A DNA stretch of 43,827 bases from NCBI GenBank assembly GCA_024641085.1, contig JAHEDT010000008.1, forward strand, positions 37,648 to 81,474, given 5' to 3'. Shown here piece after piece: positions 2,050-13,867 of this stretch. A program made the translations under genes and the position numbers. Positions within the stretch are counted from its first letter, which is position 1. The number at the start of each line of letters is the position of its first letter. Under the pieces are notes generated by a model, which was not told the DNA's origin, did no database searches, and saw nothing but the letters and a program-made list of their open reading frames with translations. The stretch comes from Geobacteraceae bacterium (GTDB taxonomy: Bacteria; Desulfobacterota; Desulfuromonadia; Desulfuromonadales; BM103).

Positions 2050-2075
2050 GTGAAATGTGTAGACGCGACCCCTAA
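2050..2075. repeat. Single half-site of the inverted-repeat element found at 12401-12475
   Basis: Bases 2050-2074 match the right arm of the 12401-12475 element at 23 of 25 positions; the two differences are in GACGCGACC versus GACCTGACC. No facing second arm is seen within ~100 bp on either side. The site sits between the U32 gene stop and the rnd promoter. It is probably a decayed or solo REP-like unit. Confidence 0.6.
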
Positions 2076-11506: not shown

Positions 11507-12349
11507 ATGAACACCTTACGGACCATTATCCTGCTCACCGTGCTAACCCTCGGACTGGTTTTCGTCGGCGGTATGATCGGCGGCCAGCAGGGCGCTCTTT
11601 TCGCCCTGGTCATGGCAGGCATCATGAACATGGGCTCCTACTGGTTCTCCGACAAGATCGTCATCAAGATGTATCGCGGCAGCCAGGTGACCAGTGGCCC
11701 TCTCTACAAAGTGGTTGCCGAACTTTGCCAGGCCAACCAACTGCCGATGCCGAAAGTCTACACCCTGCCGCAGGCGACCCCCAATGCATTTGCCACCGGG
11801 CGAAACCCTGAGCATGCCGTGGTTGCTGCCACCGAGGGAATCATGCAGATTCTCTCGCACGACGAGTTGAAGGGGGTCATGGCCCACGAGATGAGCCACG
11901 TCATGCACCGCGACATCCTGATCGGCTCGATCGCTGCGACCATTGCCGGGGCCATCGCCTACCTGGGCCATATGGCTCAGTGGGCCGCGATCTTCGGCGG
12001 ATTCGGCCGCGATGACGAGGACAGCAATCCCCTCGCCCTGATCGTCATGGCGATCATTGCACCGTTGGCAGCCATGCTGGTCCAGATGGCAATTTCCCGG
12101 TCCCGGGAGTTCGAGGCCGACAAGGGCGGTGCCAAGCTGAGCGGCAACCCGCTCTCCCTGGCCAATGCCCTGCGCAAGCTGGAAAACGCCAACCAGGTCA
12201 GGCCGATGCCGCGGGTCAACGAGGCAACGGCACACATGTTCATCGTCAACCCGCTGCGCGCCGGTGGCGTCGCTGCCCTATTCACCACCCACCCGCCGAT
12301 GGCCGAACGCATCCGCCGCCTTGAGGCAATGGCCGCCGGCAGAAGCTGA
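11507..12349 (+). CDS. htpX: Membrane zinc metalloprotease HtpX
   Basis: A 280-aa M48-family protease of the inner membrane that helps degrade misfolded membrane proteins. Two N-terminal membrane segments (residues ~4-22 and 27-45) precede the zinc motif HEMSH (127-131), with the third ligand E203 in REFEAD. Two more hydrophobic stretches lie at ~138-155 and 175-195. The length agrees with the family. The gene has 118 bp of upstream spacing and its own terminator, so it may be a single-gene unit set between fmt and rsmB. Confidence 0.95.
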
Positions 12350-12365
12350 TTGCCAAAATCAACCA

Positions 12366-12391
12366 GGGGGCCCACATTGCCCCCTTTAATT
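12366..12391 (+). terminator. Terminator after htpX
   Basis: GGGGGC (12366-12371), a 7-nt loop and GCCCCC (12379-12384) are followed by TTTAATTT. It lies 17 bp after the htpX stop. Confidence 0.75.
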
Positions 12392-12400
12392 TATGCGGCG

Positions 12401-12475
12401 TAGGGGTCAGGTCTACACATTTCACTTTTTTTGCACAAAATACATTTTTTGTGAAATGTGTAGACCTGACCCCTA
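12401..12475. repeat. Perfect 25-bp inverted repeat, REP/RAYT-like element
   Basis: The left arm at 12401-12425 (TAGGGGTCAGG TCTACACA..., ending TTTCAC) is an exact reverse complement of the right arm at 12451-12475, around a 25-nt T/A-rich spacer. As RNA it would fold into a very stable stem. The GGGGTCAGGTCTACACAT core resembles ends seen near REP-associated tyrosine transposases in other Proteobacteria; this is from memory, not a search. It lies after the htpX terminator and ends 21 bp before rsmB. A 23/25 half copy is at 2050-2074. Confidence 0.8.
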
Positions 12476-12496: not shown

Positions 12497-13867
12497 ATGG
12501 CCCATCAAAACAAACCGGCGCAGCCTGCCGAGGCCCGCTCCGGGGCGTATGACATCCTGAAGCGCGTCGAGCAGGGCGGTTATGCCGACCGGCTCCTGGA
12601 CGCCTACCTGGAACGCAACCCGGGGATGGATCCCCGCGAGCGGGGGCTTCTGACTGAACTGGTTTACGGGGTGCTGCGTCTGCGCGGCCGGCTCGACTTC
12701 GCCTTGGGGCGTTTTTCCCGACAGCCCCTGGCGCGCCTGGAGACCGAGGCCCTGCTGCTGCTGCGGCTCGGTGCTTACCAGCTGCTGGAACTCGACCGCA
12801 TTCCGGCGCACGCCGCGGTGCACGCCACTGTCGACCTGGCCCACCGAATCGGCATGGGCCGGGTTTCCGGCCTGGTTAACGGCACGCTGCGCGCCCTGGA
12901 ACGCGAACGCACCACGATCCCCTGGCCGACGCCGGACCACCTGCGGGCTTACCTCCAGCACGTCTGTAGCCTGCCAAGCTGGCTGGCCAAGGAACTGCTG
13001 CGCCAGTTTCCGAACAGCGAATCCCGGGCCCTGGCGGAGTCCCTGGCCGGCCCGGCACCGCAGACCCTGCGCGTCAATACGCTGAAAACCGACCGCGAAG
13101 CCCTGCTCGCGGCTCTGGCAGACACCGGTCACAGCGCCCGGCCCTGCCATTTCGCTCCCGAAGGGATTGTCATCGAAAAACGGGCCCCACAGGGCTTGCC
13201 CGGGGACCATGAGGGGTGGTACCAAGTCCAGGATGAGGCCAGCATGCTGGTTGCCCACCTCCTCGGTGCGCGCCCCGGAGATCGCGTTCTGGACGCCTGC
13301 GCAGCCCCCGGGGGCAAGACCACCCACCTGGCAGCACTGACCGGTAACCAGGCCCGCATTCTGGCCATCGACAAGCACGCCCAGCGAGTCGAGCTGATCA
13401 ACCGGGGAGCCGAACGGCTCGGTTGCAGCGGCATCGAGGCACGTTGCTGGAATCTTACCGGCGCACCGGACTTTCTCGAACCCGGGAGCTTCGACCGCAT
13501 CCTGGTCGACGCTCCATGCAGCGGTCTCGGTGTTCTGCGCCGCAACCCGGAGAGCCGCTGGAATCGGCGGCCGGCGGATATCCAGGAACTGGCCGCACTG
13601 CAGCGGCAGATCCTCGCTCAGGTCGCCCCCCTGTTGCGCTCCGGAGGGCACCTAGTCTACTCGGTCTGCACCTTCACTGGTGCGGAGACGGATGATGTGG
13701 TCAAGGATTTTCTTGCCCGACACCCAGCTTTTATCGAGGAGGACTTTCGTACCCTGCTGCCAGCCGAGTGGCTGGCTCTGACGACCGACACCGGCCGGGT
13801 GCGCACCCTGCCCCATCTTCATGACGGCATGGATGCCTTTTTTGTCGCACGCTTGATAAAATCCTGA
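12497..13867 (+). CDS. rsmB: 16S rRNA (cytosine-C5)-methyltransferase RsmB
   Basis: A 456-aa enzyme that methylates C967 (E. coli numbering) of 16S rRNA using S-adenosylmethionine. An N-terminal NusB-like RNA-binding domain (residues ~8-145, AYDILKRVEQGGYADRLLDA) precedes a Rossmann methyltransferase domain. The SAM site is DACAAPGGKTTHLA (~273-286). Two catalytic cysteines are present: C341 (DAPCSGLG) and C391 (VYSVCTFTG). The length matches Sun/RsmB. The palindromic element ends 21 bp upstream of the ATG and may affect its expression. Confidence 0.95.
   Translation: MAHQNKPAQPAEARSGAYDILKRVEQGGYADRLLDAYLERNPGMDPRERGLLTELVYGVLRLRGRLDFALGRFSRQPLARLETEALLLLRLGAYQLLELDRIPAHAAVHATVDLAHRIGMGRVSGLVNGTLRALERERTTIPWPTPDHLRAYLQHVCSLPSWLAKELLRQFPNSESRALAESLAGPAPQTLRVNTLKTDREALLAALADTGHSARPCHFAPEGIVIEKRAPQGLPGDHEGWYQVQDEASMLVAHLLGARPGDRVLDACAAPGGKTTHLAALTGNQARILAIDKHAQRVELINRGAERLGCSGIEARCWNLTGAPDFLEPGSFDRILVDAPCSGLGVLRRNPESRWNRRPADIQELAALQRQILAQVAPLLRSGGHLVYSVCTFTGAETDDVVKDFLARHPAFIEEDFRTLLPAEWLALTTDTGRVRTLPHLHDGMDAFFVARLIKS

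Follow-up and report, generated by a model that had tools for sequence, protein, structure and literature searches.

A dispersed inverted repeat upstream of rsmB in a Geobacteraceae genome is probably a REPIN-like mini-element with TIRYT terminal repeats

Results

Layout and folding of the repeat before rsmB

The window analysed here is a 43,827-nt stretch (contig C30, positions 37648-81474) of a Geobacteraceae genome, G000, that comprises 3.5 Mb in 151 contigs. A gene that we take to be htpX, from the name given in the initial annotation, is followed by a terminator-like stem, an inverted repeat and then rsmB (Table 1), whose matches were weak in G010, G013 and G021 among the 40 genomes searched. 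The repeat is laid out as the initial annotation had described it, with two arms of 25 nt each (12401-12425 and 12451-12475) that are 100% complementary, an A/T-rich spacer of 25 nt between them and 21 nt from the end of the right arm to the rsmB ATG at 12497. Comparing copies revealed that the actual repeated unit is a 71-bp, 23-25-23 arrangement (12403-12473) and that the outer TA pairs of the 25-nt arms are flank. The further claim that this is no terminator also held, with a T run absent after either arm and the separate htpX stem preceding the repeat; our terminator scan accepts loops of 3-8 only, so the repeat itself could not appear in it. A promoter scan gave no sigma-70 promoter around the repeat, and Rfam gave nothing on the window at gathering scores.

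Table 1. Coordinates of the repeat, its neighbours and related elements. Positions with no contig or locus label are those of the window.
Feature	Position	Strand	Basis or remark
Upstream gene, presumably htpX, 280-aa ORF	11507..12349	+	ORF list
Terminator-like stem after htpX, distinct from the repeat	12365..12385	+	terminator scan
TA beside left arm, flank	12401..12402	.	variable among copies
Left arm, terminal repeat, 23 bp	12403..12425	+	20-bp core among 71 exact genome copies
Spacer, 25 nt	12426..12450	.	plus strand T-rich (minus A-rich) either side of a short apical stem; folds and pair counts
Right arm, terminal repeat, 23 bp, inverted	12451..12473	-	core copy count
TA beside right arm, flank	12474..12475	.	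variable among copies
Downstream gene rsmB, 456 aa, named as in the initial annotation	12497..13867	+	matches in 40/40 genomes searched, own included
Single arm, sister family GGGGTCGCGTCTACACATTT	2050..2074	-	core search of genome and relatives
Transposase, 311 aa	C116:44384-45316		PF01797; between inverted cores 44307 and 45319
Second Y1 transposase gene, shorter relative, 214 aa	C116:12464-12793; L046:1411-2055
620-bp repeat	L057:649-1269, and at least 15 other G000 places	minus (L057)	repeat search

Folded as single-stranded DNA, the two strands of the repeat reach -27.6 and -27.9 kcal/mol, where shuffled sequences average -5.7 and -6.1 (z-scores -11.5 and -12.0), and a single arm alone gives 0 kcal/mol for both arms, with no internal hairpin. 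The predicted RNA hairpin is likewise stable and leaves the 21 nt before the rsmB start codon outside its long stem, with ten of these 21 nt placed in a weak stem of their own in the minimum-energy structure and most of that stem dropped in the centroid. With up to 3 mismatches allowed, the 20-mer core of the arms matches the window three times and 100 shuffles not once.

Copies in the genome

Further copies, as the initial annotation had anticipated, are plentiful, with the core GGGGTCAGGTCTACACATTT matched in G000 at 0, 1, 2 and 3 mismatches by 71, 1, 3 and 2 sites (77 in total; 0 for a reversed-pattern control). The 71 exact cores comprise 26 in 13 inverted doublets of 70-71 bp, 43 that stand singly and 2 that form the ends of a transposase element, and they occupy 70 distinct contexts, given that exact singles on C16 and C133 share their surroundings. 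All six inexact cores are single arms, such that exact cores make up 43/49 of the singles and 26/26 of the doublet arms found within 3 mismatches. Nine of the 13 doublets are clear of ORFs of at least 90 aa, and the other four lie inside putative ORFs of 94-198 aa. The exact 23-mer had no match on viral contigs, the repeat was not found on plasmids, and an Rfam search of nine repeat loci (E up to 0.5) gave no credible match, a trypanosomatid snoRNA hit at E 0.19 being below the gathering score and taken as chance. The single arms gave no match to a four-helix-bundle (23S IVP) cargo; control genomes gave none either, so such a cargo may have been missed.

Several features of the surroundings recur. 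At L045 1001 and L026 1501 the core lies so near an ORF that the TAG stop borrows a G from GGGG, and the inner side of many single arms (L001, L037, L053) carries CACAAATTTAGTACC and then a low-complexity stretch of the GCGAGGTGCGAGG type. Just outside GGGG there is a degenerate motif of about 25 bp, often TTA-ended (e.g., L134, L156, L165), that occurs on both sides of some doublets and is clearer in G001, a species of the same genus, and in G017 than in G000; it was counted with a pattern written after inspection of the data. This motif was considered first as part of the element and then as a hairpin; the hairpin was set aside, with the near flank not stabler than the far flank in 4/5 sets.

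The initial annotation had further reported a half site matching 23/25 positions at 2050-2074. Such a match is present, but it belongs to the sister family GGGGTCGCGTCTACACATTT and is not the same repeat. This sister variant (GGGGTCGCG) accounts for two of the six inexact cores, with its second G000 copy at C78:42632. It has one match in G001 and forms a family in G017 (7 matches in six places, three of which are doublets); among the matches listed, single ones occur in G023, G031, G033, G052 and G097.

Fifteen of the 43 exact single arms sit in a 620-bp repeat whose ends, each about 95 bp, are imperfect inverted copies of one another. The core lies near its middle. Among the 16 listed G000 copies spanning that position, which were found without relying on the core alone, 15 have it exact and the remaining one has no core within 3 mismatches. 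Across 13 copies the mean pairwise identity is 0.837 versus 1.0 for the core, a core figure that is biased upward by the selection of those 13 on an exact core, and other blocks of the 620-bp repeat also reach at least 0.95 identity. Pieces resembling its ends recur widely in the order, some match being seen in at least 18 of the 23 genomes examined.

A transposase gene between two copies of the repeat

The initial annotation had likened the core to REP units moved in trans by a RAYT and had pointed to the rest of the genome as the place to look for such a gene. A profile search with PF01797 found two Y1_Tnp genes in G000, one of which is a RAYT-like gene flanked by the same repeat, although the repeat itself better matches TIRYT ends than classical GTAG-tagged REPs. 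This 311-aa transposase (PF01797, 6e-11) is carried by a 1,032-bp element both of whose ends are the repeat, with its stop codon inside the right repeat, and it is the only transposase-bearing copy. Its flanks are 24-bp exact inverted repeats beginning GGGGTCAG, which match GGGGWSAS. H60-Y61-H62 and Y83 are kept in at least 18 of 19 transposase genes, and from its position Y83 is probably the catalytic tyrosine. A C-terminal match to Bac_DnaA_C (residues 250-281) scores 18.4 bits, below the cut-off of 31.5, and the NCBIfam model REP_Tyr_transpos, whose cut-off is 80, scores the protein at 63.3 bits. The 214-aa second gene scores 80.3 with the same model, just above that cut-off, and had no core match nearby at up to 3 mismatches. 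A PDB sequence search with the transposase returned none at E up to 0.1.

Relatives of the transposase are widespread, with matches in at least 83 of 98 genomes, and the core at up to 2 mismatches occurs in 26 of the 98 (own genome included in both). The closest relative, in G012, has 68% identity, and only past its 3' end can a repeat be recognised. At the orthologous place in G001 the upstream gene is followed by other sequence and the transposase is absent; the best match anywhere in that genome, which is 87% complete, is weak (E 1.6e-28). In six other relatives the two flanks of the transposase gene match separate places, so that this locus may be a rearrangement point.

Repeat ends co-vary with the transposase and arm changes are paired

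Among 39 loci with a transposase relative, 22 had inverted ends that start GGGGTC or GTGTC and then diverge; these 22 were kept for their GGGGTC- or GTGTC-like inverted repeat, and 19 passed a stricter rule. For these 19 transposase genes, own included, repeat distance tracks protein distance (Mantel r 0.589, p 0.0001, the minimum possible with 9,999 permutations), a co-variation that could follow from shared descent alone.

We also aligned 19 chosen doublets (16 distinct) from four genomes, namely 8 of the 13 in G000, 6 of the 11 seen in G001, 2 from G012 and 3 from G017, each turned to its T-rich strand and with the decayed G012 rsmB doublet left out. The structure model has a 23-bp stem, an internal A/A (or T/T) loop with 6 nt on each side, and a 5-bp apical stem capped by a 3-nt loop. 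Pairing holds in 94.6% of cells, and 12 cells have changed on both sides, a number reached by 0/500 shuffles. These two-sided changes fall in four long-stem pairs (pairs 7 and 8 in G017, pair 1 in G012, and pair 20 in G012 and one G001 site) and in one apical pair. Two other measures were not clearly above shuffles, these being the number of pairs with a two-sided change (30/500) and of further pair types (359/500). In the apical stem 77% of cells pair, with 4/15 at the innermost pair.

Presence and absence in relatives

Comparing the rsmB upstream region across relatives, as the initial annotation had proposed, revealed both presence and absence. From the 40 genomes searched, 30 rsmB loci were fetched (own included), two of which were cut off upstream, and the core was found in 3 of the 28 informative loci. 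It is exact in the own genome and in G001, and in G012 one arm has 2 mismatches and the other has decayed. In the 25 remaining loci the roughly 300 bp upstream contain nothing closer than 8-10 mismatches, which argues that this is not a conserved rsmB hairpin. The G000 and G001 doublets have the same orientation and 1 difference in 71 positions; the spacer reads TACA in the window versus TGCA in G001. Further copies, a RAYT-like gene and an arm pair missing from most relatives are the reverse of what the initial annotation had named as speaking for a purely local hairpin (no copies, no RAYT, and the repeat kept in all relatives).

A second site, C26:49740, behaves similarly. Among nine relatives searched, G001 and G012 have the doublet, and the aligned stretch of G004, G005, G009, G014, G015, G016 and G018 has none. 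Positions 20 and 52 have changed together, in both arms, between G000 and G001, and the G012 doublet has its own arm variant, again changed on both sides. No target-site duplication, such as a MITE of a DDE transposon would leave, was seen by eye, with the flanks of empty sites too diverged to give an exact junction or target.

Arms are preserved while flanks drift

From the flanking DNA, 10 of the 13 G000 doublets are at orthologous places in G001, a count in which L058 had no search of its own; for L043 the flanks lie on different G001 contigs and for L055 they have no G001 match. In the arms of the ten shared doublets 7/460 positions differ, 4 of the 7 at one site, whereas the flank pieces beside them, taken as the best BLAST piece per side, are 79-91% identical (79% beside L135, 91% beside L140; 82% over the whole C26:49740 match). 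With single arms included the range is 78-92%, the upper end coming from the single-arm site L048 with L139. Thirteen single-arm sites could be paired, L037 through a single flank, and in each of them both species have the exact core; G001 as a whole has 43, 6, 1 and 1 cores at 0, 1, 2 and 3 mismatches. By hand arithmetic a divergence of 15% would leave about 4% of 20-mers unchanged, so that the arms, singles included, are held by selection or homogenisation.

The spacers look inverted at 3 of the 10 shared doublets (L034, L042, L059), weakly so at L042 (0.64 versus 0.52). On 20 of 29 outer sides the stretch from the aligned flank to GGGG was the longer one in G001, against 3 sides where G000 had more and 6 with no difference, a bias with a two-sided sign test of about 0.0005 by hand; this is a hand tally over two genomes in which the sides of one doublet are not independent and a mispaired row (L008 at 398 with L126) was left out. 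The inner side of 10 single arms had no such bias (G000 longer in 6, G001 in 4).

Discussion

From these sequence comparisons, the repeat before rsmB is very probably a non-autonomous, REPIN-like mini-element made of two inverted TIRYT terminal repeats and most likely mobilised in trans. The mobilising enzyme would most likely be the 311-aa transposase of G000, which, with its HYH motif, Tyr83 and a putative C-terminal helix-turn-helix, may bind the arms as single-stranded hairpins and cut at the GGGG/CCCC borders. The excised hairpin would then be pasted at another place. We infer this route by analogy with IS200/IS605, for which it has been described, and with REPINs, for which it has been proposed. 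The copy studied here would have arrived before G000 and G001 split, entering the space that separates rsmB from the htpX terminator. Orthologous presence and absence suggests such mobility, and the doublets now look old, mostly shared (10/13) and not recently moved. Copies can evidently persist with no transposase detected, as G001 has 43 exact cores and no close transposase copy. For rsmB itself the copy is most likely a tolerated passenger. By the predicted fold, the mRNA would carry a stable hairpin ahead of the ribosome site, and a mild effect on rsmB mRNA stability or readthrough is possible.

Why old copies should have kept their arms is a separate matter, for which we offer a tentative and rather improbable suggestion. 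The transposase may keep old copies in place, with recutting that restores the arms, flips the spacers and trims the DNA outside GGGG. The strong contrast between arms and flanks, the inverted spacers and the outer-flank bias point this way, as do the different paired arm variants of G000, G001 and G012 at C26:49740. Against it, no close transposase was found in G001 and the six inexact G000 cores are all single arms, as ordinary decay would give. In its wider form, which we hold with equal reserve, this would be a concerted evolution of dispersed 23-bp sites through a single-strand transposase, with single arms included and restoration by re-pasting or by copy-templated repair.

Selection offers another way to account for the same preservation. 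The arms could be a binding site of the host, for instance in chromosome organisation or repair, that is kept place by place and owes only its origin to the transposase. The near-identity of arms at the ten shared doublets, the core spectra of G000 and G001 that are dominated by exact matches, and the exact core in nearly all listed 620-bp copies would all be expected of such a site. We nevertheless regard it as unlikely, as most of the relatives compared have no repeat at the orthologous sites, the arms are identical to the ends of the transposase element, and the core at up to 2 mismatches is scarce in 21 other members of the family (none in 12, one to three in 6, in a search that misses diverged variants).

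The class of element named in the initial annotation was partly right, in that this is a mobile repeat with a Y1 transposase, but classical REP/RAYT is very probably the wrong class. A classical REP or REPIN of a GTAG-type RAYT would account for an inverted doublet in many copies with near-constant spacer length, mostly outside ORFs, in a genome with Y1 transposase genes whose 311-aa product is matched, below cut-off, by REP_Tyr_transpos. Yet the single arm has no internal palindrome, at 0 kcal/mol, so there is no GTAG at the foot of a hairpin and TIRYT fits better than classical REP/RAYT; ends that fit GGGGWSAS and a long protein with a weak C-terminal helix-turn-helix match are TIRYT traits as well. 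We therefore consider the classical class highly improbable. Similarly improbable is arm identity arising through palindrome-templated repair only, that is, a hairpin correcting itself with neither transposase nor selection, which would explain the joint change of both arms at C26:49740 and the inverted spacers at 3 of 10 shared doublets and leaves unexplained the identity between different loci, the 43 exact single arms and the 13 paired single-arm sites exact in both species. Least credible of all is a local regulatory hairpin controlling rsmB from its 5' UTR, since a stable RNA hairpin that stops 21 nt short of the start codon, kept in orientation and nearly unchanged in the same-genus species, is set against a core absent from 25 of 28 informative rsmB loci, 69 other exact cores elsewhere in the genome and doublets beside other ORFs.

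Returning to a mini-element with TIRYT ends, these are copies of a known, little-studied kind of repeat that is here unusually well preserved. Neither PMC3733652 nor PMC6006769 uses the word Geobacter in its main text. In our literature searches the first 12 bases of the core were met only in sea-cucumber work, and Geobacter together with repetitive extragenic palindromic only in genome statistics.

The element shares with IS200/IS605 the HUH/Y1 transposase domain PF01797 and differs in having one transposase-bearing copy, many gene-free copies and long perfect inverted ends. With REPINs it shares an inverted doublet with conserved ends, a spacer that keeps its length and pairing, and compensatory changes, as these are set out in parts of PMC3116915. 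Unlike REPINs, the arms here are not REP palindromes, and the 43 exact singles outnumber the 13 doublets and are little decayed, whereas Bertels and Rainey 2011, in their treatment of singlets, regard those of REPINs as less conserved, defunct remnants (PMC3116915). The persistence of REPIN populations has been modelled (PMC8049555), and in-place maintenance, if true, would be relevant to the persistence of repeat populations of this sort.

The closest likeness is to the TIRYT, or TIRtron. In the passages of Di Nocera et al. 2013 on these elements, TIRYT genes are flanked by GGGGWSAS repeats, some of which form repeat families with dimers, and whether TIRYTs mobilise repeats is left open (PMC3733652). 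In the relevant part of Quentin et al. 2018, 20/26 TIRYT proteins fall in subclass 2.1, which has a C-terminal helix-turn-helix and is present in 14.9% of strains; its account of these genes gives no REP-like sequences near them and calls for further analysis (PMC6006769). Subclass 2.1 is the probable home of TIRYT-like transposases, which are common, yet the name TIRYT is little used in the literature searched. Our element matches this system in its Y1 gene with an HUH motif between long GGGGWSAS terminal inverted repeats, here GGGGTCAG, and in the dispersal of its repeats, here 43 exact singles and 13 dimers; its long protein may match as well, with a C-terminal DnaA_C-like hit that is below cut-off. 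It differs in belonging to another sequence family, in a Desulfuromonadales-type genome, and in what is added here, namely orthologous presence and absence, a repeat that co-varies with the transposase, and arms that stay preserved beside drifting flanks. With one transposase element, 13 doublets, mostly shared sites in a same-genus species and relatives that do not have them, the link between repeat and transposase becomes testable in this lineage.
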